Origin: Candidatus Roizmanbacteria bacterium
GTDB lineage: Bacteria > Patescibacteriota > Microgenomatia > UBA1406 > GWC2-37-13
Assembly (NCBI GenBank): GCA_027002315.1
Contig: JALWZV010000089.1
Location: 1 to 32,379 of the forward strand
Reading direction: 5' to 3'
DNA: 32,379 nt
Shown: in pieces, positions 3,879 through 32,316 of the stretch
Numbering within the stretch: position 1 is the first letter of the stretch
How the letters are laid out: the number at the start of each line of letters is the position of its first letter
Translations under genes and position numbers: made by a program
The notes under the pieces: model-generated
Databases searched by the model: none
The model's input: the letters and a program-made list of their open reading frames with translations, nothing else
What the model was told of the DNA's origin: nothing

Positions 3879-4256
3879 TTAAGGAAATAAACTTGGTATG
3901 CTAATTACCCAACTTCCATCCGCAGCCTTTTTAACAACTCCCAAGATATTGCCTGCAAGGAAACCGAATAATGTGTATGTTATCACAACTATGAGCAAGC
4001 CAATAACCGCGTGTGTAATTTTAAGCTGAGCTTTAATTAATCTTTCTTTTTCTCCTTTAGACGCAATCCAGTCTAGACCTGCCCACAGAAGATAAAAGAG
4101 CAAAAGTATGCCGGCGATTATAATTGCATAATTTACAAACTTTGCGATAACACTTCCCATCAACCCTGCAAAGCCACTATTACCACTTGAACCAGATGCC
4201 GCGTTGTTAATTGCGTTGCACATGGGTCCAAAACATATATTTGTTGTCAGTATCAT
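3879..4256 (-). CDS. VirB2/TrbC-like pilin-type membrane protein
   Basis: Two hydrophobic helices flanking 'DWIASKGEKERLIKAQLKITHAVIGLLIVVITYTLFG', the G-x-x-x-x-(L/I)xKA(K/Q) loop of VirB2-like proteins. Start moved from 4328 to MILTTN (4256) to avoid overlap with the upstream gene. Confidence 0.72.
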   Translation of the reverse strand: MILTTNICFGPMCNAINNAASGSSGNSGFAGLMGSVIAKFVNYAIIIAGILLLFYLLWAGLDWIASKGEKERLIKAQLKITHAVIGLLIVVITYTLFGFLAGNILGVVKKAADGSWVISIPSLFP

Positions 4257-4281
4257 TTTTATCTTAGTCAGATTTGTAAAC

Positions 4282-4644
4282 TTATATTTTTGTAAATTGT
4301 GGGTTAAGTATTGCATCCCAACGGCCAAACACTGTTATTCCAATAATAGCTGCCAGCAAAGGAGTTAGGACAATAATAACCAACCCTATCGCTGTATATG
4401 TCATTTTTAAATTTGCTTGTGCTACTTTCTTAGGATCACCATTAGCTGAGATGTATGAGTATCCTGCTAGTATGAAGTTAATTAGTGTAAATATTCCCGC
4501 GACAATTAATACTGCTTGTAGAGCAACATTGAGCATCTTAACCAGTCCTTCTTCTGGGCTGGTAAATGTTGGGGTTCCTATCGGAGGAGTAACTTGACCC
4601 ATTACCGTAGGGACAGTGTCTGCTAATAATTTTAGTTTATTCAT
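4282..4644 (-). CDS. VirB2/TrbC-like pilin-type membrane protein
   Basis: 120 aa; two TM helices around 'SYISANGDPKKVAQANLKMTYTAIGLVIIVL'. Confidence 0.75.
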   Translation of the reverse strand: MNKLKLLADTVPTVMGQVTPPIGTPTFTSPEEGLVKMLNVALQAVLIVAGIFTLINFILAGYSYISANGDPKKVAQANLKMTYTAIGLVIIVLTPLLAAIIGITVFGRWDAILNPQFTKI

Positions 4645-4664
4645 ATATTTAATTTAATTATAAC

Positions 4665-4967
4665 TTAGAAAGGAGAATTTGGACCTCCTATTCCTAAAAG
4701 ACTTGCTATAAGCTTAACTAATAAATAACTTGCCAATATAATGCCAAAACCGATAAGGGACATATTCAAGGTAGCCTTAACCTTTTTCAGTTTATCTGGA
4801 TTTCCGTCGCTTGACATATACTGAAAACCCATATATATGAGCATTAAGAATAACAAAACCCCTGCGACTAAAATTATATTAGGTATAATGACATTAAGAA
4901 TCATTGCCAAGCTTGTAAATTGAGCAGGGGCAAAGTTACTAGAATCGATAGTAAGAGCATATACCAT
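4665..4967 (-). CDS. VirB2/TrbC-like pilin-type membrane protein
   Basis: 100 aa; 'QYMSSDGNPDKLKKVKATLNMSLIGFGIILASYLLVKLI', same two-TM/loop architecture as its neighbours. Confidence 0.75.
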   Translation of the reverse strand: MVYALTIDSSNFAPAQFTSLAMILNVIIPNIILVAGVLLFLMLIYMGFQYMSSDGNPDKLKKVKATLNMSLIGFGIILASYLLVKLIASLLGIGGPNSPF

Positions 4968-16471: not shown

Positions 16472-19400
16472 ATGGAGATTAGAAATGGGCGTGAGTTTAT
16501 TAACTCCGCAAAACAAGACGCGAGAAGAGCACTAGACTCTTTACTAAGGAGAAGGAGTGCTGACACTCCAGAGATAATTAGAGATAGGAAAGAAATGGTT
16601 GAGAGAGGCGTTCAGAATAAGTTTAAGAAGGCAAAAAAAGAGGTAAGAGATATGAGAAAGGCTGATGAAAAAGGTCGTGAAGTAACTAATAAAGGGGAAA
16701 AACAAAAGAAGATAGTAAAAAGTTTTGCTGAATTAGTTGCCGCAACTGAGAAAGGTTTAGATGTAGTTCCTCAACAAGTTAGACCTATTTTACAGGAACT
16801 TGCCTCAAGAGATCTAAACTATGCCGCTGTAGAGTCAAGCCTCTATTTTTTAGGGGACTACTTTACTGGAGACAAGCAGATCGCCTCAGGTGGAAGGTTT
16901 ACCGATGAGTTTAGATCTGATATACAAAGTTTTATGCTTGATAATCACTACACTGCTGAGATGATTTTGGACGCAATTAATAAGCACAGAGGCGAGTATG
17001 GAGTAACCTATGATGAAATACAAATACTGAAAGGTGAAAAAAGAGAATCAGGAGCAACCAGTAAGAAAACGGGTTTTGATAAGATTGAGAGGTATTATAA
17101 AGACTCGAGAGTATTAGGCGAGGAGTTAAAGGACTATCTTAAGTATGGGATTAGGTTTAATGAAGGAGTATTGGAGGTTGAAGTGAGAAGCGAACGTGGT
17201 TGTGACTCTGATCCAGGTCTTCCAGATTGTACTCCTGAAGCTATCAGAGCTGGTGTTGAGTCTAGAAAATCTGTGTTGATAGCAGATATCAGAATGTTGG
17301 TTACAGATGTGCCTAAACCGGGAGAAAAAGTAGATAGTGTAAAGAGGAGAAAAATGCAGGAAGTTGATAGATTAAGAGGACTAGGATATATAGACAATGA
17401 TACAGCGGATAAATTAAAGGAATTTGTGGGAAGATATACTGTAATGACAGAGAAATATGCCGATATTGATCAGATATTAGCTGGTAACAGTCTATCGATG
17501 ACAGCAAGAACTTTCAAAATCACAATTAGTGAAGAAGGAAACAGGATTATGCGTCTAATAGATAATCCCGCCATTTTTGATAGTGAAATAAAAGATCCTG
17601 GTTCTTTTTATCACAAAAGGTATGTAGTAAATGGCAGGATAGACTTTGCAAAGTTGTATGATGATATTCTTAATTTAGGAGAGGAAGTTATCAGCATGAT
17701 TGATTACACGCCTGATCAAAACTTTGATGCGAGCTTTAGTCCTTATTATGAGGGGGCTTTTTATAAACAGTTAATAAGGAGAGTTCAGCAACTAGGAGAA
17801 GAGTTAGATAAGTTTGAACTGGGAAGCAGTATTGTAGAGGTGGAGGACACAATGTTATTAGCCAACCCTAATCAAGATGGAATAGGAGGAGAAGAGAGGA
17901 TGTCGTATCGCGTTAGGAAACGAAAAACACTTGCGGAGGCGTTTAGAGAGGATATGTCCTCTGGACTAGCTAAGCTTCTTAAGGTAAATAGGTCCTTACA
18001 TGATATAGAGTACATCGTTGATAATGGGTTGGGTTGGGATAAATTAGCACAATTTGTTGGCACATTAAGTTCGGAAGATGTCGATTGGTTGTTCAGCCGA
18101 GACCCAGAGCTTATTGCTGCTTATCAGTTATATATCCAAAACTTAAAGAACAGAGTAGCGTTGAATAACAGGATTATAGATGTAGACTTTGGTAAAAAAA
18201 CATCGGAAGGATTTGACAATGAACAGCTCATAACACGCAATCAGCTTTTAGCTATGCGTGGTGATGATAGCGGTATTGCGGGTCGTAGAGTAGCAAGAAA
18301 GGTTAGGTTAGCCACAGCTATAGCAAAAGGCTTTAGTGGTGAGTTTTGGGGTGTCCTCATGACCTCTTCTATGCCTATGAGCTATGAAGGAAACTTGGTT
18401 TACGACAGTGAAGGAAGGGTAATAGGGGTAAAGCACAAACAAAAGGCTATCTTTACAGGTCCGCATCACTCAGGTGTGGAAAAGATGTTAATGGGCATAG
18501 ATCCTGTTAAGATGTGGGAAAGATTTGGAGATTTACCTCACTGGGCTCCAATGTTAAGATTTATGTTTATGCCTCGAGATACTGCTAAGTATGAGGGTTG
18601 GGATCATACATTGGTATATGAAGTAGGAGATAAGTATAAAGAGGCTTTTTTTATGGGAGCAGATGAGGACTTTCTTGAGTTCTTAAAAGATCATGTTTTA
18701 ATGGCAGATGTTTTGAGAGTGCCTTCTATAGATATTTTCCAAAGATTAGGATGGAGACCTATGCAGTACAAGGCCTTTTTAAGGTTTAAGGAAAGTGAGG
18801 TTGCAGGACGAAGAATTGATTTTCAAAAAAGTTTAGCTACTATGATGGCCGCCGGAACTTTACCCACAAGAGTTTTTATTGACCACCTTGAGGATGTTGT
18901 TAAGGAAGCAGGATTTATAGATATCTCTACTTTGCCTGATGATATGTCTGGAAATATCAAACGTTTATTTTCAAGGTTAAATACCGGAGCAATAACTGAT
19001 GATGAAAAAAAGATACTTACCCAGTTTATGTATGAAAGATATATCTTTAAAAGGGCACTTAATACATCACCTACACGTGTAATTGGTTTTGAACGAAGAG
19101 TGTACACTCCGAAAAAGGAAAGTTTAGTTGGAGAAGACTTACAGGCTTTTTTGATGAGAGAATATCCCGACATCAATCCCGGACTTATACGAAACAAGAT
19201 ACTTCCTTTGTATATAGAGGCTATAAACATAGCTGAAAAAAATAAGTGGGTGAAGAATAAGAACAAAGCACTTGAGATATTGCAAAATAGCAATGCGTCT
19301 CCAGCAGAGGTTAAGAAAGCATATGGGCTACTTGATTATACATTTTCACTTGAGGATTTGCTAAATCCTGAGGTACAAAAACAGGTAAACAAATATTTCG

Positions 19401-20410
19401 AGAAGATGGTAAATGTAACAATACTACAGTATCAAGGTAGAGATATAGAGTTGAGTAAGATAATTACTCCAGAGAAATTTAGAACAACACTACCAGGTTT
19501 TTTTACGGAGATGAGAAACAGTATTAACAAAACAAGAGTTAGAGGCAAAGGTGAGCGTAATTATTTGAAAGAACCAAAAGGAATACGTTACTCAGCTGAT
19601 ATCACTCTCGAAGAAAGATTTTATCACTGGGCGCACCACCTAAAGATTCTTGATTATGATTTAGGAGCTGATGATCTGGATTTCAGACTTTTTGCCATGG
19701 AGCAGGCAGGAAGAAATGTGCACGGTAGAAGCTTTGGGGATACGGCTAATGTTGCTAAAGAGATAGTTCCAAGTATGCAAAAATTATTTTTAGATAGGGT
19801 TGCTGACTTTACTAAACAGGAATTTAAGGATAATAATAAAATGATGGAGTATGTTGGAAAAGAGATTATCCCGTTAGCTCACAAGATTACAGATGTGATG
19901 GATAAGTATGCAGGAAAGCCTGCTGCAGATGAGATGGCAATAAGACTGGCTCAGGCATTCCGTAGAGCTGTAGGTGAGGACTCTGATTATGATAATTTAT
20001 TTATTGGATGGGCAAAGAGAAGAATACATAGAGCGTATAGACTGAGAGAACAAAGTTTACTTCAAGATTTTTTCCCGTCAACTTATGAAAGGCCAACGAC
20101 AGCTCTGAATGCTGGACAACAAAAGATGGTGGAATTGGCTATAGCTAATGCCTGCAACGTTCCATTGAGAAAAGAAAATCCCGATGGATATGAAACTAAA
20201 ACTGCAAAATTGTTAGGCATAAAGCTTTTTAAGTATAGAAAAAAGAAAACAAAGGAAAATAAATTTTCTATAGAAGGGAGTCTTAAGCCCGCGGAAGGTT
20301 TTACGTTTGGCAGGGAGTTGTTGAATAGGTATGGACCAATAGCAACGATAGCTCTTTTAATGATTTTAATTATGCTCATTCGTCAAGCTTTGAAAAAAGA
20401 CAAAGAATAG
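16472..20410 (+). CDS. 1312-aa membrane-anchored protein of unknown function
   Basis: Single long ORF, charged and mostly helical, with one C-terminal TM ('GPIATIALLMILIMLIRQALKKDKE'); no recognisable domain. Confidence 0.85.
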   Translation: MEIRNGREFINSAKQDARRALDSLLRRRSADTPEIIRDRKEMVERGVQNKFKKAKKEVRDMRKADEKGREVTNKGEKQKKIVKSFAELVAATEKGLDVVPQQVRPILQELASRDLNYAAVESSLYFLGDYFTGDKQIASGGRFTDEFRSDIQSFMLDNHYTAEMILDAINKHRGEYGVTYDEIQILKGEKRESGATSKKTGFDKIERYYKDSRVLGEELKDYLKYGIRFNEGVLEVEVRSERGCDSDPGLPDCTPEAIRAGVESRKSVLIADIRMLVTDVPKPGEKVDSVKRRKMQEVDRLRGLGYIDNDTADKLKEFVGRYTVMTEKYADIDQILAGNSLSMTARTFKITISEEGNRIMRLIDNPAIFDSEIKDPGSFYHKRYVVNGRIDFAKLYDDILNLGEEVISMIDYTPDQNFDASFSPYYEGAFYKQLIRRVQQLGEELDKFELGSSIVEVEDTMLLANPNQDGIGGEERMSYRVRKRKTLAEAFREDMSSGLAKLLKVNRSLHDIEYIVDNGLGWDKLAQFVGTLSSEDVDWLFSRDPELIAAYQLYIQNLKNRVALNNRIIDVDFGKKTSEGFDNEQLITRNQLLAMRGDDSGIAGRRVARKVRLATAIAKGFSGEFWGVLMTSSMPMSYEGNLVYDSEGRVIGVKHKQKAIFTGPHHSGVEKMLMGIDPVKMWERFGDLPHWAPMLRFMFMPRDTAKYEGWDHTLVYEVGDKYKEAFFMGADEDFLEFLKDHVLMADVLRVPSIDIFQRLGWRPMQYKAFLRFKESEVAGRRIDFQKSLATMMAAGTLPTRVFIDHLEDVVKEAGFIDISTLPDDMSGNIKRLFSRLNTGAITDDEKKILTQFMYERYIFKRALNTSPTRVIGFERRVYTPKKESLVGEDLQAFLMREYPDINPGLIRNKILPLYIEAINIAEKNKWVKNKNKALEILQNSNASPAEVKKAYGLLDYTFSLEDLLNPEVQKQVNKYFEKMVNVTILQYQGRDIELSKIITPEKFRTTLPGFFTEMRNSINKTRVRGKGERNYLKEPKGIRYSADITLEERFYHWAHHLKILDYDLGADDLDFRLFAMEQAGRNVHGRSFGDTANVAKEIVPSMQKLFLDRVADFTKQEFKDNNKMMEYVGKEIIPLAHKITDVMDKYAGKPAADEMAIRLAQAFRRAVGEDSDYDNLFIGWAKRRIHRAYRLREQSLLQDFFPSTYERPTTALNAGQQKMVELAIANACNVPLRKENPDGYETKTAKLLGIKLFKYRKKKTKENKFSIEGSLKPAEGFTFGRELLNRYGPIATIALLMILIMLIRQALKKDKE

Positions 20411-20425: not shown

Positions 20426-21301
20426 ATGCACACTAAGTTGCTTAAGTTAACAGCACTGTTGATTTTGGTTATTCTTTTTAATTTGGTGCGTGTTAGCTCT
20501 ATTTTTGCATTACCAACTTATACTCCTGTTCCCATTCCTTCCACATATTTTGCGACTCCTACTTTAACTGGTCCTATTACGATAACAGGAGGTGGAACGG
20601 TTATACCGGTAAGCGGTGCGCCTGTTATTGTAGCACCAGGTGATAGTGTTCCGATGGAGACCTGCGGGATAGCTGGTGATCCAGCTAAACAACAGTGTTG
20701 CTTTACCCCAAAAAGGGGAATAATTGGTTTTAGCATACTGAAAAAAATTCCATATGTGGGAGATTGGTTGGGGATTGTAGATACTGCTTTAGGGGCTTTT
20801 AGCGGTGTGCAGGCACCATGTATTTATGGACATCCTGATAGAAAAAATTACAAGGATCCTATGTGTAAATGTGTTTTGGATTTAACACCCTCTCCGGTGA
20901 AAAAGATTAAAGAGATGTGTAAAAAATATGTTCCTACACTAAGACCAGGAGTTCCTTCTCAGGTTAGAGCTAAGGCTCAAAAAATGTCGGATGCATGTAT
21001 AGATTGTGCTGTTAACAAATCAGGATATTGGTCTGGTATAGGATGTATTCCTTTGACTGTGGGTGGAGTGGTAGGATTTTTTATGGTAAAGGTCGGTATG
21101 AGTTTAGGTGGAATTTTAGCTTTGTTATGTATAATTTATGGTGCTATCAGTTTGCAGTTATCGCAAGGCAACCCTGAAAAAGTTAAAAAAGCAAGAGAAC
21201 TTATAACATCTTGTGTTTTAGGATTAATTCTCATAATATCTTCTGTGTTTATACTCAAAGTAATAGGTGTAGATATCTTGAGAATTCCTGGTTTTACTTA
21301 G
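20426..21301 (+). CDS. secreted/membrane protein: Cys-rich ectodomain fused to VirB2/TrbC-like two-TM module
   Basis: N-terminal signal-like helix, about 10 Cys in the ectodomain ('MCKCVLDL','DACIDCAVN'), C-terminal 'GGILALLCIIYGAISLQLSQGNPEKVKKARELITSCVLGLILIISSVFILKVIGVDIL'. Confidence 0.78.
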   Translation: MHTKLLKLTALLILVILFNLVRVSSIFALPTYTPVPIPSTYFATPTLTGPITITGGGTVIPVSGAPVIVAPGDSVPMETCGIAGDPAKQQCCFTPKRGIIGFSILKKIPYVGDWLGIVDTALGAFSGVQAPCIYGHPDRKNYKDPMCKCVLDLTPSPVKKIKEMCKKYVPTLRPGVPSQVRAKAQKMSDACIDCAVNKSGYWSGIGCIPLTVGGVVGFFMVKVGMSLGGILALLCIIYGAISLQLSQGNPEKVKKARELITSCVLGLILIISSVFILKVIGVDILRIPGFT

Positions 21302-21345: not shown

Positions 21346-22998
21346 TTATTTTTTTCCTCCAATGGCTCCGCTATGAGGAAACTCTATGTTTAAAGTGTTT
21401 TTAAGTATTTTGGCTACAGGACCAATATAAGCTGCTGTTGAGGCAAAGCCCATACCTGTCTGGAATCCAGACCCCAAGCTACCAACTCCTCCAAAGAAAA
21501 CACCTGGAGAGAACTTTGGCATCGGAATTGGTTTTGGATTGAGCAGCTTTTTAGCTAACTTTATTAGGTCAGGGGTCATAAAAAGAACAGTCATTGAGAT
21601 TAGAAGTGAAAGAGCATCGGGATCCATACCCTTAGTAAATGGAGGATGAAATATATTAGGAGAGGTGACATTAATCACATTTAACAACGTGTGACCTGTT
21701 AAAAGTATTGTTACCAGGATAGGAAATGTGAGGAGTTCAACGGTTAATCCTTTTAACCAGCTTGAGAATGCGTTGTTCCCTGGAATTGCGTTAAACATTA
21801 TTAGGAGAGGAGAGAATATAATAAGAAGGATAATATTAACATAAGCAACCAAGACCATAATCAGTACTCTAAAGGCCAAGAATAATATTGTTAGAAAAAT
21901 AATTATCCCTATTAGTAGTGGACCTAAAATAAATGCTAACGCGACAGCTAATATTATTTCAGGACCATATATTAATAAGTCTGCGATGCCGTGAACAATT
22001 TTACTTGCAATTGCTACATCTGCTATCAAAATACCTAGTTTCCCCTCTATTTTGCTAATAAGATCTGTAAGCCAGTTGTAAATTTTCGCATTGTTTACCA
22101 TTGGCAACGTTATAAATATCGTTGTTGGGATAACAACGGCCACTCTAAACAAAGCTCCCCACCAGCGGTTGAATATATCAAGCATTAAAGGTCCGATAGC
22201 AAAAATTGTTTTAACATCTTTAAACAATCCTCGACCGCCTAATAGTTTACCTAAAATTGTTGCGGGGTTAGCCTCAAGATATGAGCTTATTTCCTGTGAC
22301 GTTTTAGCAGCGTCAAGTCCATTGATATGTGAGAAAATACTCACAATAATCGCAGTTGAAATGTACATTAAATCTATTAATAGTCCCGCAATAGCAAAAG
22401 AGAAGGTTACCATAATTATGGTAACTATTATTCGAGGTAGAGAATTTTCTAGTGTTACTATAGTTTGAGGGTTAACCTTCATTCTAAACATAACCATAAA
22501 GCCTATTGTTACAAGTACTAAGACTAGTAGAACAAAGGAAATATTTCTGAATGTTAACCAGATTATGGAATAAGTTTGTATACTAGCGAAACCTATCCCT
22601 GTTGCGTAAGTTTTAGGTATAAACCCTGCATTTTGTAAACTGTTGGCAGCCCAGGTGGAAAAGGAAGCAGGAGGGTATAGATATGGCATTATTGTAATTG
22701 TGGAGAAGAATTTCCCCAAAGATTTAGTTCTTTGAATGGCTAATTTTTTTTCTGTTTGGGATGAGCAGTATTTCTCGTCCAGAAAACACCTCATTTTTAC
22801 ATATAGTTCTTTTTTTTGTTGATTCTTTTCGATGGAGGTAGGAATATATAAACTCTGTTGACCTTGATGAGTAATGGTTTGTTGTGGAGATAAGACTATA
22901 AATGCTATTATTATAATAACATAAGTTGCAACAATAAAAATCACCTTTTTAGAAAATTTTAGTGACTTTTTTATTAGAAACCAAATATATTCCAACAT
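21346..22998 (-). CDS. VirB6/TrbL-like polytopic membrane protein (putative T4SS-like component)
   Basis: 550 aa, multiple TMs, Gly-rich C-terminus; general TrbL/VirB6 architecture next to a VirB2-like gene. Confidence 0.65.
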   Translation of the reverse strand: MLEYIWFLIKKSLKFSKKVIFIVATYVIIIIAFIVLSPQQTITHQGQQSLYIPTSIEKNQQKKELYVKMRCFLDEKYCSSQTEKKLAIQRTKSLGKFFSTITIMPYLYPPASFSTWAANSLQNAGFIPKTYATGIGFASIQTYSIIWLTFRNISFVLLVLVLVTIGFMVMFRMKVNPQTIVTLENSLPRIIVTIIMVTFSFAIAGLLIDLMYISTAIIVSIFSHINGLDAAKTSQEISSYLEANPATILGKLLGGRGLFKDVKTIFAIGPLMLDIFNRWWGALFRVAVVIPTTIFITLPMVNNAKIYNWLTDLISKIEGKLGILIADVAIASKIVHGIADLLIYGPEIILAVALAFILGPLLIGIIIFLTILFLAFRVLIMVLVAYVNIILLIIFSPLLIMFNAIPGNNAFSSWLKGLTVELLTFPILVTILLTGHTLLNVINVTSPNIFHPPFTKGMDPDALSLLISMTVLFMTPDLIKLAKKLLNPKPIPMPKFSPGVFFGGVGSLGSGFQTGMGFASTAAYIGPVAKILKNTLNIEFPHSGAIGGKK

Positions 22999-23051: not shown

Positions 23052-24158
23052 TTATCCTCCGTATTGTGACCATACATACTCACAGTATGTTTTACTGCCT
23101 AACCTTTTGTATTTACTCGAACAATTCCCATAATAATTTTTAACAGCTCGGTATGTTTCTTCCTTGGTCCAGCCAGTCGTTTTTTGAACTTTGCCAAGTT
23201 TTTTTAACTTCATTGCAGCTGCATACAGATTATCTCTAAGATTACATGGATTAGGTTGATGAGTATATCTGCCATACTCTTGCACAGCATTACCATACAA
23301 AGCCCAGTCATTAGGACAGCCTCCTTGAGTGCTAAGACAAATACCATTACTACAACATAAAGCGCAGGATGGTGAGCCGTTAGAATCAATTCCTATAGAT
23401 AATCTCATTGGCCCTGTTAAGGAACACTTATCAGGACCACAATCAGGGATAATGCTTCCTGGCGTTGAGTATTTAGTTATTTCTTTGGATGAATAAGTTA
23501 AGATAGGTGAGTAATCTATATAAACCATTGCTTCTAAGACTTTTGGAGGAACTCCAACATTCATACCAACTTCATATATTAAATCAGATAAGTTATAGAC
23601 TGTGTTTAGTTGTCTAACTGGTGTTGGGGTGAGTGTAGGTGTTGGTGTTCCTGGGTTGTTTTTCTTCTCAATTTTTTCTACTTGATTATTGAGTGTAAAA
23701 AGGTATGTGGCCAAATTTTCTAAAGACTTAAGTTGTCTTTGTTGATAGTTGGGAGTTGGTTCTGGAGTTATTTCAAATAAATCTTTATTTTTTTTAAAAA
23801 ATTTTTGTATATCTTTACTCTGAACTTTCAACCACTCTTGAAAACTTTTTTCTCCATTTGAATTTTTAGTATAAACTACAAATTTATTTTTTTTATACGA
23901 GTACTTAAGTTCAAAATCTTGTTGTTTGACAGGGAGTCTGTTATTTAGTAATACATCAAAAGTCTCTGTATCCTTTGATGGCAATCTGTAACCCATAATC
24001 ATTCGTACTGTGGTTGGTGTCGGGTACTTTTTAGCTTCTTTTTTTGGATTTTTGCGCGAGAATATCAGATTTATGATTATAAGTAAAAAAAGTAAAAAAA
24101 GAAGAACTCCTGTGATAATAACTATCCTTTTCTTATCTGTAAATATCGTGTTCATCAT
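23052..24158 (-). CDS. membrane-anchored lytic-transglycosylase-like protein with N-terminal shared module
   Basis: N-terminal TM; shared module 'RLPVKQQDFELKYSYKKNKFVVYTKNSNGEKSFQEWLKVQSKDIQKFFKKNKDLFEI'; TP-rich linker; C-terminal 'VGVPPKVLEAMVYIDYSP...YGNAVQEYGRY...AAAMKLKKLG...TYRAVKNYYGNC' resembling SLT/lysozyme-like domains. Confidence 0.65.
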   Translation of the reverse strand: MMNTIFTDKKRIVIITGVLLFLLFLLIIINLIFSRKNPKKEAKKYPTPTTVRMIMGYRLPSKDTETFDVLLNNRLPVKQQDFELKYSYKKNKFVVYTKNSNGEKSFQEWLKVQSKDIQKFFKKNKDLFEITPEPTPNYQQRQLKSLENLATYLFTLNNQVEKIEKKNNPGTPTPTLTPTPVRQLNTVYNLSDLIYEVGMNVGVPPKVLEAMVYIDYSPILTYSSKEITKYSTPGSIIPDCGPDKCSLTGPMRLSIGIDSNGSPSCALCCSNGICLSTQGGCPNDWALYGNAVQEYGRYTHQPNPCNLRDNLYAAAMKLKKLGKVQKTTGWTKEETYRAVKNYYGNCSSKYKRLGSKTYCEYVWSQYGG

Positions 24159-24619
24159 TTTATAAATCTAAACCTTTGTAAACTTATATCTGGGTAATTT
24201 TTACCTCTCCATTTTTCGAACTCATTTTTTGTTTTTTCTCTGTCTTTTTTAAGTTGCACCTCAAAAACATCGTCGACATAGTTAAAGGTTATTGTAAAGT
24301 ATTGAGTTTTAACTGGACTTTTGTGTCTCAGTTCCACCTCCTCATTTATTGATTTTTGTTCTTTCGGGTCTATGGAAATTTTAGGGTTAGCTCCTGTGAA
24401 ATCAGTTGGAGCAATTGTTGGTGATGTTTTTGGACTTAGTTGAGTTGAAGTAGACGGTTTGTTGATATCAGTTGGAATAGCCACAGTAGGAATATTTACC
24501 CCCCCATTTTTTTTATTATTTTTCCTCCAGGTTAAGCTAATAATAATGTATGTAATAATTGCAAAAATGACAAAAGTGACTGTTAATATTAAATACATAT
24601 TTTTTTTAGAGTTTAGCAT
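24155..24619 (-). CDS. single-TM protein carrying a divergent copy of the shared module
   Basis: 154 aa; N-terminal TM, PT-rich linker, 'EVELRHKSPVKTQYFTITFNYVDDVFEVQLKKDREKTKNEFEKWRGKNYPDI'; overlaps the next gene by an ATGA. Confidence 0.7.
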   Translation of the reverse strand: MLNSKKNMYLILTVTFVIFAIITYIIISLTWRKNNKKNGGVNIPTVAIPTDINKPSTSTQLSPKTSPTIAPTDFTGANPKISIDPKEQKSINEEVELRHKSPVKTQYFTITFNYVDDVFEVQLKKDREKTKNEFEKWRGKNYPDISLQRFRFIK

Positions 24620-24631
24620 ATTTTAATTATG

Positions 24632-26086
24632 TCATTTTTTAACACCAAATGCTGACATATATTTTGGATACGGATAATATGAGTTTTCGTTAAATGGAAT
24701 ATGATATCTGCCATAATATGCATCGTATGCTAATACATTATTGTTACTGTCTACGTCTGTTATCCAAAAGAAATGTCCTCCTTTAGGATAAGGTTTGTAA
24801 TATGCTAGGACAAATATTGTCCACCCTGCATCTGTGTAATTTTTGAAATCTTGGATAACCTTATCTACTTTTTCTGGAGGATCAAAATAGAAAATATACC
24901 TTGTTGTTTTTAAACCATGTTCTTCAAGTATCACTTTTGCTTGTTCTGTTAACGAACCGTTTGTACAGGTTATTGAATAACCGTGTCTTTTGTACATATC
25001 AACAACCTGCTGTGGTCCATATCCAGGATTAACAAGCGATGAGAGTATCATAGAAACAGTAGTTGGTCCACAGCCAGCTCTACACAAAGTACACCCAGAA
25101 TCATTTAATGGTATGTTTCTATATTTAGGTTCACACTGAGAATAATAAACATATTGACTTGGATCAACTTGTCCCGCTATGGTTGGAAGAGGAGTTGGTG
25201 GGGGGATGGTTGCTTGAGCAATTAAGGTTGGTGTAGGAGATGGGGTTAAAGATAACTGTTTGTTAATCTCCTTTTCTGTTTTTTCTACTTCCCCCCCGAG
25301 TCCAAAATAAAACATCGCTAGTTTTTTAAATGCATCTATTTGAGGTGACAAATAATCAAGGTAGCTCAAAGGCGTGGGTGTTGGAAGCTTACTTTGTGTA
25401 TTATATGCCTCCTCCTCCCTTTTTTTTCCAAGAACCTTTTCACTATTTTTTTCTACAGTTTTTGGGGACGTATCAGAGATGGTGACTAAATCTGAGTGAT
25501 TTTGAAAGAAATCCTGAACATCTTTAGGTTGAGTTTTTATCCATTCCTGATACTTTTTTACCCCGTCTGCATTCTTGGGGTAGAGAATAAACTTATTTAA
25601 TTTATCGGAGTATATGAGTTCAAAATCTTCAGTTTTTATAGGCAACTTTTTTTGAATAAGAGCCAATATTTTTAGTTCTTGAGTGCTGAGTGTTTTTTCT
25701 ACAGCTTTAGCTATAAGTTGCAACCTGTGTTGCTTTTGTTGTTCTGTTTCTTGGAAATTATTATCAGACGCTCCTGTTTCTGCAGGCTCAATATTGCTAC
25801 TGTCATTTTTATTTTTTGAGAGTGTTTGATTAATGTTTCTATCTACATCCTTTTTATTATTAGAATTGCTTATATCGTTTATATTATCTCCTTTTTTTGT
25901 TAGACCTAAAAAATTAAAAAGTGATTTAGATCTTTTTACCCCTGAGTTATTAATATTATACGGTGTAATCTGTGGAAGGTTAGATTTATTTTGACGATTT
26001 TGTTTTAAGCTGTTAATAATGATACTAATTATTATTATCAAAACAAGCGTTATTGTGGAAGTTACTATGATTATTTTTTTCGACAT
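24632..26086 (-). CDS. membrane-anchored C39-like (papain-fold) peptidase with N-terminal shared module
   Basis: Catalytic-type motifs 'AGCGPTTVSMILSSL' (Cys), 'GGHFFWITDVD' (His), 'LAYDAYYG' (Asp); N-terminal TM and 'KLPIKTEDFELIYSDKLNKFILYPKNADGVKKYQEWIKTQPKDVQDFFQNHSDLVTI'. Confidence 0.78.
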   Translation of the reverse strand: MSKKIIIVTSTITLVLIIIISIIINSLKQNRQNKSNLPQITPYNINNSGVKRSKSLFNFLGLTKKGDNINDISNSNNKKDVDRNINQTLSKNKNDSSNIEPAETGASDNNFQETEQQKQHRLQLIAKAVEKTLSTQELKILALIQKKLPIKTEDFELIYSDKLNKFILYPKNADGVKKYQEWIKTQPKDVQDFFQNHSDLVTISDTSPKTVEKNSEKVLGKKREEEAYNTQSKLPTPTPLSYLDYLSPQIDAFKKLAMFYFGLGGEVEKTEKEINKQLSLTPSPTPTLIAQATIPPPTPLPTIAGQVDPSQYVYYSQCEPKYRNIPLNDSGCTLCRAGCGPTTVSMILSSLVNPGYGPQQVVDMYKRHGYSITCTNGSLTEQAKVILEEHGLKTTRYIFYFDPPEKVDKVIQDFKNYTDAGWTIFVLAYYKPYPKGGHFFWITDVDSNNNVLAYDAYYGRYHIPFNENSYYPYPKYMSAFGVKK

Positions 26087-26128: not shown

Positions 26129-29100
26129 ATGGGATTCTTTTTTAATTCTAATAAAAAAAACGATTCTAAGTCAAACGATAATAACAATCAGCAAGCACAA
26201 CCATCTCAGTCTGTAAACAAACCCCAGACATCTCAACAGAGCAACACTGTTCAACAACAACCTGTTGTCGCTCCCACTCAGGCAAAACAACAAAATGTAA
26301 GTCAGAGTACAGATACATCTCAAGCTAATATTTCTCAGCAACAAATAAAAGAGGTGAATAAGAACGTTAGCACAAGCAGTACAATTAATAATCAGCAACC
26401 TTCGAATGGCGCTAAGGCAACCCAGATGGGCGAAAGTAAGAAAGAGCCTGTTGCTGATGTTGCTAATAAAAACAATGATGTAAATAAAAGTAACGGTGAT
26501 AGTAATGAAAATGTTAAGGGAGATAAAGACAAGCAAATTAACAATGAAAAGGTGGATTTAAAAAAGGAAAATAAGAATATTACAGCTGATAAAATGAGTG
26601 ATTTGGACTTGATGACTCACCTTACTCAAAGATCGAATCGTGTTTTTTTTAATGCTCAAACAAAGGCCAAAGAGTTGAAAAATCAGTACCTAGACAGCGA
26701 ACACTTATTGTTTGGTCTTTTGTCTGATAGTGAGATTTATAATTTACTAACAGGCCTTAAGGTTTCTCCTCAATTAGTGTTGGCAGAGTTAAATAAATTG
26801 TTTAAGGAAGGAAAATTTACGGGGAATCCTCAACCGTCCCCAAGAGTAAAACGCATAGTGAATAGCGCTTTAGTTACGGCTCGTAAACTTGGGTTTGAGT
26901 TTGTGTCCCCAGAGCATTTACTTATGGCTTTGTATGAAGAAGGAGAAGGTTTAGGAGCGAGAGTCCTTACAAAATTTGGCTTAAAGAAAGAGGATTTAAA
27001 CAAGAAGATAACTGGTAAAAAACAAGGTGTTGAGGAAGATGCTCGGAATAAGTCAGCAACTAGAAGCGCTCTGGCACAGTTTACAATAGATTTAACAGCA
27101 AGAGCCGCACAGGGCTTATTAGATCCTGTTGTTGAGAGATCTGATATTATTGAACGAGTTATACATGTGCTTTCACGCAGACGAAAGAATAATCCGGCAT
27201 TAATAGGAGAAGCGGGAGTTGGAAAAACTGCTATAGTAGAGGGTCTAGCTCAACAGATAGTTAAAGGAAAGGTTCCTGAGCCACTTTTAAATAAGAAGGT
27301 ACTACAACTTGATTTAATGAGCGTATTAGCAGGCGCTTCTCATAGAGGTGAGTTTGAACAAAGAATGAAGAACTTGATTAATGAGATAAAAGAGGCAGGA
27401 GGAGAGATAATACTCTTTATTGATGAGATGCATAATATAGTTGGAGCAGGCGGCAATGAAGGGACTCTAGATGCCTCTAACTTTCTTAAACCTTCTTTAG
27501 CTAGAGGTGAAATGCAGATGATAGGAGCAACAACAACAGAGGAGTACAGAAAGTATATAGAAAAAGACCCTGCTTTGGAACGTAGATTTCAACCAATTCT
27601 TGTTCCTGAACCAACAATCGATCAAGCTATTGAGATGTTAAGAGCATTAAAAAATAAGTATGAGGCATTTCATAGAGTTAAGATTCCCGATGAGGTAATA
27701 CAACAGGCTGTTAAATTATCGAAGCGATATATAGGGGATAGATATCTTCCTGACAAGGCCGTTGATCTAATAGACGAAGCTGCATCAGCAGTAAGGCTAC
27801 CTTTGATATCACTGCCTGAAGAGATAAAATCTTTGGGTACGCAAATTAAGAAATTGCAACAGGAATCACAGGAAGCCAAGCAAAGAAGAGACAGAGTTAA
27901 GGCAAGAATACTAAACTCTAAAATAGATGACCTCAATCACGAACTAAACGAAAAAAAAGAAGAATATGAAACTCAAAGAGCAAGAACGACCACAGAGGTA
28001 AGCGTTGATGTTGTAAAAGATATCATTTCTAAGTGGACAGGAATTCCTGTCTCTAAGATTAGCGAGTCAGAGACAGAGAAATTAGCCAACTTAGAAAAGA
28101 TAATGCATAAGAGACTTATTAATCAGAATAAAGCAGTTGTTGCTGTTGCTGAGGCTATACGTAGAGGAAGAGCTGGATTAAAATCTCCACGTAGACCAGT
28201 TGGTAGCTTTGTGTTTTTAGGACCAACAGGAGTTGGTAAAACAGAGCTTGCTAAGACGTTAGCAGAGGTGTTGTTTGGAAAAGAGGAATCTATGATTAGA
28301 TTTGATATGACCGAGTATATGGAGAAGCATGAGGTTGCTAAGTTATTAGGAGCTCCTCCGGGTTATGTTGGATATGAGGAAGGTGGTAAACTAACGGAAG
28401 CTGTTAGAAGAAAGCCATATTCTGTTGTTTTATTTGATGAGATTGAAAAAGCACATCCCGATATCTTTAATATATTATTGCAGATATTAGATGATGGGCG
28501 ATTAACAGATAATAAAGGACACACAATCTCTTTTAAAGAAACTGTGGTTATTTGTACGTCTAACATAGGCACAAAGATAATACAAAAGAGGCTCTCTGAG
28601 GCAGCAAATTTAAAAGAAGAGATGAAGGATAAGGAGTATGAAAACGTTAAAAAAGAGGTTATGGCTGAGCTGGGTAAATTTTTTAGGCCAGAATTAATTA
28701 ACAGATTTGATGGTGTGGTGATCTTTGAACCTCTTAAATTTAAACACATTCAAGAAATAGTTAGATTACAGTTAAAGGGGGTTGCAAAGCTTCTAGAGGC
28801 TCAAAATATGGGATTAAAATACTCAGATAGAGCAGTTGAGGAAATTGCTCAACGGGGATTTGACCCGGTATTCGGAGCCAGACCATTAAGAAGAACGATA
28901 CAAAGACTCATAGAGAATCCAATATCCACTCTAATTATCAGAGGTAAAGTAAAGGAAGGGGATATAATATCTATTGATTTTAAAAATGGTGCTTTTACTT
29001 TTGAGGTAGAACGCGTTGTTGAGCTTACAGAAGAGAGTCCAGTTATGGTTCAGTTTAAGTGTAATAAATGTGGAAATGTTTTTGAGACAGAGGTTATAAA

Positions 29101-29434
29101 GAACTCAACAACGATTTGTTCCAAATGTGCATCTACTGATGTAACAGAGCAACAAAATGAGGAAGTGGAAAAACAAGAAGATAAAGATAAAAACGATAAA
29201 TTGAGTAAAAATAAAGACGAGAGTGTAAAGGTAGAAGACAAACAGGAGGCAGTAAGTAAAAAACAGAGTGAGCAAGAGAGTATAAAGAGCAAAAATAAGA
29301 ATGTAGTCAATGAGGATAAAGGTGAAGAAAACAAGAATACATTACAAGCTGATGATGAAACAAATAAGAAGGAAGACGAGAAACCCACACAACCTCAAAC
29401 TAGTGGAGGTTATGATTTTTCAGCAGTTAACTAA
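26129..29434 (+). CDS. ClpB/ClpC-type AAA+ unfoldase with Q/N-rich N-terminal extension and C-terminal zinc ribbon
   Basis: Clp_N repeat ('[12 protein letters not shown]','[13 protein letters not shown]'), two Walker A ([18 protein letters not shown]), Walker B ([17 protein letters not shown]), C-terminal '[11 protein letters not shown]...TTICSKCAS'. Confidence 0.93.
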
Positions 29435-29836: not shown

Positions 29837-30512
29837 AGTGATATTGTATCAATCAGTCCTAACCTTAATTCTTATAATTATTATCTTTTTCGTAACGCGT
29901 CGTTTAACTCAAGAACTGTACAATATTTTATACTTTATATTCAAAAATAGAAAAATTGCCTTTACACTTTTGGCAGTAATCTTTTTACCTGGAACTGGAT
30001 TACATGAGGTCTCTCATTTTTTGATGGCAACAATACTGATGTTAAAGGTTGTTGATTTTACTTTACTTCCTGAGGAAAAAGAAGATAGAATAAAGTTAGG
30101 GAGCGTTGTTTATCAAAAAAAAGATTTATTAAGGGCAATAATAGTTGGAATTGCTCCCATATTTGGTGGGCTTACCTTTTTTTTCGGGTTAGCATACTTC
30201 AATCTTTTCCCATCTTCAAATATGATTATTAATTTATTGTTGATTTATTTAATATTTGTTGTTTCATCCACAATGTTTTCCTCAAAACAAGATTTAAAAG
30301 ACTTAATCTATATAATTCCATTTCTAATACTTTTTGCTGGAATATTCTACGTTTTTGACTTAGGCCACCTGTTTAAATTTACAGATGAGTTTATTCACTC
30401 CGTCACAAATATGATCTATAAAGTTAATATTTATCTTTTATTGTCGCTTTTCATTAATGTATTTTTATTTTCTGTGTTAAAATTAGAGAGTAAATTGTTA
30501 CTTAAAAGATGA
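29823..30512 (+). CDS. polytopic membrane protein with HExxH motif (putative M50-like metalloprotease)
   Basis: 'LPGTGLHEVSHFLMATILMLKV': HEVSH within a hydrophobic segment, plus further TMs; overlaps the upstream gene. Confidence 0.6.
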   Translation: MLKSKVILYQSVLTLILIIIIFFVTRRLTQELYNILYFIFKNRKIAFTLLAVIFLPGTGLHEVSHFLMATILMLKVVDFTLLPEEKEDRIKLGSVVYQKKDLLRAIIVGIAPIFGGLTFFFGLAYFNLFPSSNMIINLLLIYLIFVVSSTMFSSKQDLKDLIYIIPFLILFAGIFYVFDLGHLFKFTDEFIHSVTNMIYKVNIYLLLSLFINVFLFSVLKLESKLLLKR

Positions 30513-30826
30513 TAAGTATCTTATTAGCTCAAAGGCTTCAGATAGGGAATGAGCCCATAGAAGGTCCACTCCAAGGGATTGATACAATAGGAGATTTAGT
30601 TTCTAAGTTGATGGAGTTTGCAACCCCTTTTGCATTAATAATTCTATTTTTTGTTTTTGTGTGGGGAGGATATGATTTATTGTTATCTCAAGGTAGACCT
30701 GAAAAAATAAAATCAGCAAAGGCTAAGTTTACAACAGGAATTATAGGATTTGCCTTGATAGTTTCAGCATATATCATAGCGTTTTTATTTAAGTATATAT
30801 TTAATTTAGGTAATGGAGCTATATAG
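30509..30826 (+). CDS. VirB2/TrbC-like pilin-type membrane protein
   Basis: 105 aa; two TMs around 'YDLLLSQGRPEKIKSAKAKFTTGIIGFALIVSAYIIAFLFKYI'; ATGA overlap with the upstream gene. Confidence 0.75.
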   Translation: MISILLAQRLQIGNEPIEGPLQGIDTIGDLVSKLMEFATPFALIILFFVFVWGGYDLLLSQGRPEKIKSAKAKFTTGIIGFALIVSAYIIAFLFKYIFNLGNGAI

Positions 30827-30975: not shown

Positions 30976-32316
30976 ATGATTAAGTATAAGGAACGACCAA
31001 TAGTTATTTCGGTAGGGGGTTCACTGTTAATCAACCAAGATGGTATTAACTATCGTTTTTTACGTAAACTCAACCATTTCATCCGTAAACAAGTAAAACA
31101 AGGGAGAAGATTCTTTTTGGTTGCTGGTGGAGGTAAAACTGCTAGACATTATAGAGATGCAGGTAAAGCTGTGATTGGTGGTATGTCTGATGAAGATTTA
31201 GATTGGTTGGGCATACATGCAACTCGTTTAAATGCACACTTATTACGTACAATATTTCAGGATATATCCCATCCTAGAATTATAGAAAATTATGATAGAA
31301 AACTTCATAATTGGAAGGAACCGATTGTTATAGGAGCAGGTTGGAAACCGGGGTGGTCTACAGATTATGACGCTGTTATTTTAGCTAGAGATTATGGAGC
31401 AGATTTAATTATCAACTTATCTAACATTGACTGGGTTTATGATAAAGATCCTAATAAGTATGATGATGCTAAGATAATCAAAAAGTTAACATGGGAAGAA
31501 ATGGAAAAACTTGTAGGAAAAAAATGGAAACCTGGAATTAATGCCCCCTTTGATCCAGTAGCAGCGCAATTGGCTAAGGATTTAGAGCTCACAGTAATAG
31601 TTGCTAATGGAAATAACTTTAGTAATTTAAACAAGATACTTGAGGGAGATAGTTTTAAAGGAACGGTTATAATGCCATTTAAAATGGATGCGAGCTTTTA
31701 CGATAGAGAATATTATACAGGGGATAAAGGAGGACTGAAGTTTAAGTACTTACAGAAGAGTTTCTTGGGAAATGTTATTCAAAAAGCCACAAACTTATAT
31801 AGAGCTTTTATGATCAAGATATATTTGAGACCTAAAACCTGTCTTGATGTTGGATGTGGAACGGGCGAGTTAGTTAAGTATTTGAGGAAGTTGGGGATAG
31901 ACGCTATGGGTGTAGAGATATCGTCTTATGCTTTTGAGTTTGCTGACAAGGAGGTTAAACCATTTTTAAAGCACGGAGATATACTTAAATTACCATTTAA
32001 AGATGATAGTTTTGACTTGGTGTTAACGTACGATGTATTACAGCACATCGACAGATCAAAGATAAAGAAAGCGATAAAGGAAACAGTTAGAGTGAGTAAA
32101 AAATACATTCTTCATAAAATATATACAAGAGAAAATGTGTGGTTTCAGGTATTTCATAATAAAGATCACTCTGATATCTCAGTTTTTTCACGTGCCTCGT
32201 GGAGAAGGATGTTTTCTTCACTTAAGAATGTTGTTGTTATGAAAAAAGGCATCTTAAGATTGCCATCATTTTTTGAGACAATCTTCCTTTTGAGGAAAAA
32301 AGAAAAAGAGGTATGA
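30976..32316 (+). CDS. UMP kinase-like amino acid kinase fused to SAM-dependent methyltransferase
   Basis: N-terminal 'IVISVGGSLL', 'FLVAGGGKTARHYRDA', 'IVIGAGWKPGWSTDYDAVILARDYGADLIINLSNIDWVYDKDP'; C-terminal 'TCLDVGCGTGELVKYLRKLGIDAMGVEIS...LPFKDDSFDLVLTYDVLQHI'. Confidence 0.88.
   Translation: MIKYKERPIVISVGGSLLINQDGINYRFLRKLNHFIRKQVKQGRRFFLVAGGGKTARHYRDAGKAVIGGMSDEDLDWLGIHATRLNAHLLRTIFQDISHPRIIENYDRKLHNWKEPIVIGAGWKPGWSTDYDAVILARDYGADLIINLSNIDWVYDKDPNKYDDAKIIKKLTWEEMEKLVGKKWKPGINAPFDPVAAQLAKDLELTVIVANGNNFSNLNKILEGDSFKGTVIMPFKMDASFYDREYYTGDKGGLKFKYLQKSFLGNVIQKATNLYRAFMIKIYLRPKTCLDVGCGTGELVKYLRKLGIDAMGVEISSYAFEFADKEVKPFLKHGDILKLPFKDDSFDLVLTYDVLQHIDRSKIKKAIKETVRVSKKYILHKIYTRENVWFQVFHNKDHSDISVFSRASWRRMFSSLKNVVVMKKGILRLPSFFETIFLLRKKEKEV

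Follow-up and report, generated by a model that had tools for sequence, protein, structure and literature searches.

Three adjacent genes and their shared module

The stretch of DNA analysed here (hereafter the window) comprises 32,379 nucleotides and is contig C89 of an 866 kb genome in 90 contigs, whose relatives belong to Candidatus Roizmanbacteria / Microgenomates. The source bacterium is tiny and probably host-dependent, and all genomes compared with it are metagenome-assembled genomes (MAGs). The reverse strand carries three adjacent genes, here called C, B and A, which exist as an initial annotation of the window had described them, each encoding a protein with a single N-terminal transmembrane (TM) segment. 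All three proteins carry an extracytoplasmic module of about 65 residues, and it is the association of this module with a type IV secretion system (T4SS) and with cell wall hydrolases that concerns us here. The genes and their domains, with lengths and residues in amino acids (aa), are the following.

24632..26086, minus strand: gene C, 484 aa; N-terminal TM (aa 5-23), module, amphipathic segment, TP-rich linker and C39-like cysteine peptidase domain
24155..24619, minus strand: gene B, 154 aa; TM (aa 10-28), linker with the family motif FTG and C-terminal module, without an enzyme
23052..24158, minus strand: gene A, 368 aa; TM (aa 12-30), module, helix, TP-rich linker and lytic transglycosylase (LT)/GH23-like domain
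25475..25663, minus strand: module of C (aa 142-204)
24161..24367, minus strand: module of B (aa 85-153)
23763..23966, minus strand: module of A (aa 65-132), with the same element order as that of B
25268..25339, minus strand: second shared segment of C (IDAFKKLAMFYFGLGGEVEKTEKE; aa 250-273)
23658..23753, minus strand: second shared segment of A (aa 136-167), a predicted helix
24638..25156, minus strand: C39-like peptidase domain of C (aa 311-483)
23058..23591, minus strand: LT/GH23-like domain of A (aa 190-367)
23514..23516, minus strand: codon of Asp215 in A, in a column that is Glu in all other LT relatives aligned there

A two-sequence BLASTP search aligns proteins A and C over 115 aa with 36% identity (E 3e-23), and their Smith-Waterman score of 231 compares with a best of 78 for shuffled sequences. 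The initial annotation had also aligned B with both of them. Pairwise, this similarity is too weak to stand alone, being marginal between A and B (BLASTP E 0.003) and not significant between B and C, but an iterated profile grown from A and C through their relatives recovers B at an iE of 7.7e-14. Because the iterated profile places B, the three module copies hold, and chance similarity is rejected by the shuffles for A and C and by the profile for B. The coordinates first proposed for the modules were essentially right, with a small correction that places the module of A at about 23763-23966. The second aligning segment reported for the two long proteins (LKSLENLATYLF / IDAFKKLAMFYF) was also recovered, as the helix 136-167 in A and as a recurring conserved stretch among C-type relatives.

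Structure prediction, suggested by the same annotation as a test of a shared fold, returned the same order of elements for A and B. The AlphaFold2 (AF2) model of B, built with 27 B-family sequences, has helix 85-100, strands 108-113 and 118-123, helix 127-141 and strand 150-153, with a pLDDT of about 90-98 over this block. That of A has helix 65-74, strands 82-87 and 92-97, helix 102-111 and strand 128-132, at a pLDDT of about 81-96. The modules of A and B are thus predicted, with high confidence, to share a helix-strand-strand-helix-strand fold. No Pfam model covers the module in the relatives of A, B and C, and no NCBIfam model covers it in the three window proteins, so that its identity with a known domain of either collection is rejected and its description as a new module stands. 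Sequence searches of the PDB with the module and with the LT domain gave no credible match.

The best Foldseek matches of B, none of them significant, include ring-building domains of type III secretion systems (T3SS) and flagella (PrgK, EscJ, FliF) and KH-like folds. The ring-building domains (PrgK/EscJ/PrgH, FliF) resemble the module in being membrane-anchored assembly domains. They differ in belonging to another secretion system and in lacking sequence similarity to it, and the matches have E-values of at least 0.28 and low TM-scores, which are lowered by the use of full models including the TM helices. We also considered that the module might be a strongly diverged true VirB8 domain, of the NTF2-like type. 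VirB8-like proteins (PrgL, TraM, TraH, OrfG) have likewise one TM and a small extracytoplasmic domain, are encoded in T4SS loci and are linked to VirB1 (PMC11323569); the module proteins stand beside VirB1-like enzymes, and VirB8 is otherwise undetected in the phylum (PMC12102498). However, the predicted unit of about 65 aa is smaller than the NTF2 domain and unlike it, without detectable similarity; no VirB8 appears among the listed Foldseek matches, and the PDB holds no match by sequence. Homology to VirB8/NTF2 is unsupported, and we regard this origin as extremely improbable.

The C-termini are those expected from the initial annotation: C39-like in C, LT-like in A and no enzyme domain in B. 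PF13529 (Peptidase_C39_2) matches 18 of 19 aligned relatives of C (best E 2e-8), while window C itself stays at 19.9 bits (E 0.0012), under the curated Pfam cut-off of 24. Residues Q317, C339, H438 and D455 are invariant across the 19 aligned sequences and are assigned by motif as the putative C39 oxyanion Gln and the Cys/His/Asp triad. C and its relatives differ from other Peptidase_C39_2 proteins in that the domain is fused to a T4SS-linked module and predicted to lie on the outer face of the membrane, rather than being the cytosolic leader peptidase of an ABC exporter. This domain may cut peptidoglycan cross-links. The C39 proteins of other families include some with a long N-terminal part of about 480-800 aa before the first TM, without Pfam match and probably cytosolic, followed by the TM and C39 (L107:5763-9158, L112:1883-4978, L113:9656-13300, L108:9121-12450).

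For A, Pfam SLT matches 2 of the 10 aligned relatives (best E 8.4e-4), and the eight top Foldseek matches of its domain are GH23 chitinase (probability up to 0.85, E 0.19, not significant). A viral origin was rejected: viral contigs searched with the LT yielded no relative, and the BFVD search gave no significant match.

In a tree of the module, whose 68 columns leave the deep branches without resolution, B-type (module-only) rows stand apart from most modules borne by hydrolases, the branch marked 97/93 holding 27 B rows and 11 rows from the wider class. The modules of LT proteins are scattered over eight separate places, and those of window A and C are sisters (99/98). This pattern suggests that the module may have been grafted repeatedly, or duplicated or homogenised by gene conversion within a lineage or genome.

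T4SS genes around the module genes

Several further genes of the window belong to this locus.

21346..22998, minus strand: VirB6-like polytopic membrane protein, 550 aa, 53 bases downstream of A
20426..21301, plus strand: T4SS pilin (PF18895, VirB2-like), convergent with the virB6-like gene and syntenic in relatives
16472..20410, plus strand: 1312-aa protein with a single TM, located at the C-terminal end; syntenic in relatives
26129..29434, plus strand: ClpC-like AAA+ ATPase, divergent from gene C and syntenic
30509..30826, plus strand: second T4SS pilin (PF18895), on the far side of clpC

C and B are separated by 12 bases, the stop of B overlaps the start of A by 4 bases, and 53 bases lie between A and the virB6-like gene. 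Because of these short gaps and the overlap between genes on one strand, C, B, A and virB6-like likely form one operon, with the virB6-like gene as the last. The VirB2-like and VirB6-like neighbours named by the initial annotation are confirmed. The pilin family PF18895 scores above cut-off at this locus. The VirB6-like family has no Pfam match; hhalign aligns it (probability 96.6, E 6.5e-10) with polytopic proteins whose genes lie upstream of PrgI/VirB4 in other classes, a comparison set with one member showing a weak TrbL/VirB6 match (E 0.0013). The 1312-aa protein belongs to no Pfam or NCBIfam family, and most relatives have related genes for 1100-1300 aa placed between jag and the T4SS pilin; it is a probable unnamed T4SS-linked component. 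The ClpC-like ATPase is extended at its N-terminus by a long Q/N-rich region, and its C-terminal part resembles a zinc ribbon at a sub-threshold score.

Two other groups of genes in the window deserve mention. At 3879-4967, on the minus strand, three short two-TM proteins group with T4SS pilins by BLAST and form a small array of pilins separate from the main locus. At 30976-32316, on the plus strand, an archaeal-type UMP kinase (TIGR02076 above cut-off) is apparently fused to a methyltransferase domain, and this gene is syntenic in relatives.

VirB4 of the window genome is encoded elsewhere, with a PF19044 match (E 2.1e-32) on contig C16 adjoining a PrgI homologue. In the VirB4 neighbourhoods read in this genome and its relatives, VirB4, a PrgI homologue and a gene of about 215 aa form a locus of their own, at which no module, hydrolase or VirB6-like gene was recognised. 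The two halves of the T4SS are joined in other families and split in the window's family. One genome (G068) gave no PF19044 match. Another (G046) has, besides the typical VirB4 of the family (L136), a second, more divergent VirB4 with pilins (L137; G046:C3:60000-79500).

Within the family, 30 relatives were found via the C39 family among named Roizmanbacteria and related MAGs. They keep a near-fixed order, in which clpC is divergent from the C39 gene (most of these with the module), followed by B and virB6-like, and in which the pilin, a 1200-aa gene, jag and yidC lie on the opposite strand. In every family locus read, the ClpC-like gene is transcribed divergently from the module-hydrolase genes. 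Gene A is additional in the window, between B and virB6-like; in relatives the LT genes are found elsewhere or fused. Thus a single 620-aa module-LT-C39 protein takes the place of C in G055 (L067/L119) and is followed by B, one protein of G008 combines two modules with LT and CHAP, and G040 has three consecutive module genes. We take B, consisting of TM and module only, to be the ancient, conserved component, with an exchangeable VirB1-like peptidoglycan hydrolase as its genomic partner.

Module loci across the class and the phylum

A search of the class with the module alignment matched 58 of 233 genomes (E<=0.01). Detection of a 65-residue module is insensitive, so that its absence means little. 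Fifteen loci from other families of the class were picked by module match with the neighbours disregarded, and in 14 of them a hydrolase gene directly adjoins a short module gene on the same strand; when module positions were permuted in 20,000 trials, this was so for 2.9 of the 15 on average and for 10 at most. The hydrolase is C39-like in 13 of these loci and an LT in one (L114), and the fifteenth locus (L116) has LT plus CHAP, with one gene between hydrolase and module gene. VirB4 is present in 5 of the 15. In L117 the order is PrgI, a 220-aa gene, VirB4, C39 and module gene, followed on the opposite strand by genes of the size of dnaN and dnaA; in L107 it is VirB4, C39 and module gene, with dnaN and dnaA nearby by Pfam. 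L114 (2297-7558) also contains nine T4SS pilin genes arrayed directly upstream of its LT and module genes, and a VirB6-like gene nearby.

The profile search over the phylum that the initial annotation had called for used as query a 64-residue, module-only alignment, blind to neighbours, and matched 19 of 380 genomes (E<=0.001), 14 of them outside the class. In 11 of the 14 loci from these latter genomes, VirB4 lies a few genes from the module gene, with E-values between 1e-139 and 1e-264. VirB6-like and pilin genes take the place of VirB4 in L162 and L163, and L161 has a ClpC-like gene. The enzymes near the module are here CHAP (L152, L154, L163), M23 (L155, L159, L160, L161), NlpC/P60 (L157), M14 (L159), an amidase (L160) and C39-like peptidases (L153, L156 and, weakly and below the usual single-scan significance, L158). 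L151 has NlpC/P60 with a glucosaminidase, the latter below the usual single-scan significance, and no enzyme was assigned among the neighbours in L150 and L162. The hydrolase partner is thus exchanged between loci. In L153 (6756-10055) five consecutive single-TM genes of 161-237 aa stand beside VirB4 and C39; one of them was recognised as module, and the other four may be diverged module copies.

This synteny strongly supports the linkage of the module to the T4SS, which the initial annotation had offered as an inference. The locus could instead serve general envelope growth or division, its T4SS linkage arising incidentally from the crowding of genes near the origin: the synteny includes yidC, jag and clpC, dnaA and dnaN are near in other families, and T4SS loci have been found near dnaA (PMC12102498). 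We consider this explanation highly unlikely, since outside the class the module stays with virB4 though the remaining neighbourhood differs (for instance in L155), L162 and L163 keep VirB6-like and pilin genes beside the module, and within the class the module comes directly after VirB4 and the C39 gene.

Small alpha/beta domains like SPOR can bind glycan. The module has a size in the range that suits such binding, is fused to several wall hydrolases and sits on linkers outside the membrane. It might then be a peptidoglycan-binding, wall-targeting domain in the manner of SPOR or LysM, tethering B and the hydrolases near the T4SS without docking to any protein. We hold this to be unlikely: no Pfam wall-binding family matches the relatives of A, B or C, the top 50 PDB fold matches contain neither SPOR nor LysM and are enriched in T3SS and flagellar ring proteins (none significant), and the tight pairing with virB4 is unexpected for a generic wall binder.

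A candidate docking domain for VirB1-like hydrolases

The wall is opened by a VirB1-like hydrolase in monoderm T4SS. In that of pCF10 the VirB1 protein is PrgK, whose interaction partner, the VirB8-like PrgL, likely directs it to the T4SS (PMC11323569). Across Patescibacteria, a survey detected VirB8 almost exclusively in one class and VirB1 rarely near VirB4, and suggested that another protein may take the role of VirB8 and other glycosidases that of VirB1 (PMC12102498). The essential genes of Ca. S. epibionticum include peptidase and lysozyme genes located downstream of virB4 (PMC12102498). In a cultivated case, the T4SS was shown by Tn-seq to be essential to epibiotic growth (PMC10633639). 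The window locus is part of this system, with PF18895 pilins and a VirB6-like gene here and VirB4/PrgI in relatives. The published description differs in that VirB1 and VirB8 are mostly missing from it (PMC12102498), and we did not find the module and its hydrolase partners described in the open-access literature. A module-only protein such as B together with an exchangeable hydrolase fits both gaps.

We lean towards the reading that the module is a T4SS-associated docking or assembly domain for exchangeable VirB1-like hydrolases. The initial picture of a TM-module-linker scaffold with differing hydrolases is supported, and is extended by the synteny with virB4 and hydrolases across the phylum; we hypothesize that such a scaffold would deliver its enzymes as follows. 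The window encodes one half of the Patescibacteria T4SS, namely the pilins, the VirB6-like protein and three single-pass module proteins. The module, just outside the membrane on a flexible linker, would pack with other modules and/or with the VirB6/VirB4 translocon, and once docked would set the wall-cutting enzyme where the channel or pilus crosses the wall. By binding protein partners in this way the module may fill the role of VirB8 in recruiting VirB1. In the window's family the module has also been grafted onto the hydrolases themselves, which would let the C39 peptidase of C and the LT of A join the same assembly.

Known VirB1-like hydrolases (PrgK of pCF10, TraG of pIP501, Orf14 of Tn916) are likewise single-pass proteins of T4SS loci that combine LT/SLT with peptidase-type (CHAP) domains, and LT+C39 and LT+CHAP fusions are present here too. 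They differ from the proteins described here in several respects: the window's family inserts the module between TM and enzyme, its enzymes are mostly encoded by separate genes, most class loci have C39 instead of CHAP, and a module-only protein is generally found close by.

The hydrolases could also be weapons, or effectors that open the wall of a host, which the T4SS would display or export, and the module would then tag proteins for display or secretion. In favour of this are the epibiotic life supposed for Patescibacteria (PMC10633639, PMC12102498) and the exchange of enzymes between loci. Nevertheless, the most conserved partner is B, which has the module and no enzyme, each protein keeps an N-terminal TM anchor, unlike a released effector, and the precedent in monoderm T4SS is a VirB1 that opens the cell's own wall. 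We judge this explanation quite unlikely.

Several observations weigh against the docking reading. Foldseek found no significant match of the module in the PDB (best E 0.28), hence no known docking fold is established. A detectable module is present in only those 19 phylum genomes, a count limited by the sensitivity of so short a sequence, and its universality is thus not shown. The virB4 of the window genome lies on another contig, outside the window; the window alone shows no VirB4 because the T4SS of its family is split over two loci. The module is absent from some LT relatives. Finally, window A has Asp215 at the predicted catalytic Glu, where 22 of 22 other aligned rows have Glu (the rows include repeat fetches of one gene, and the column was judged by motif alignment), and it is the sole aligned row with Arg in the GPMQ motif. 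Judging from these residues, the LT of A may be weak, inactive or regulatory. In PrgK of pCF10, activity is confined to the SLT domain, which is downregulated by the LytM and CHAP domains (PMC11323569).

A broader proposal is that the module is a phylum-wide structural T4SS subunit not named before, a replacement of VirB8 with a different fold that would form a membrane-proximal ring into which interchangeable wall hydrolases, sometimes module-tagged, plug in. This is possible, and on balance we find it doubtful.

In summary, a module-only membrane protein and a variable hydrolase next to virB4 provide a concrete candidate pair for the missing VirB8 and VirB1, and the module profile allows this pair to be found in other genomes. 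The fusions of the module to LT, C39, LT+C39 and LT+CHAP are a natural experiment tying it to hydrolase function. Our finding suggests how Patescibacteria may fit a secretion machine through their cell wall.

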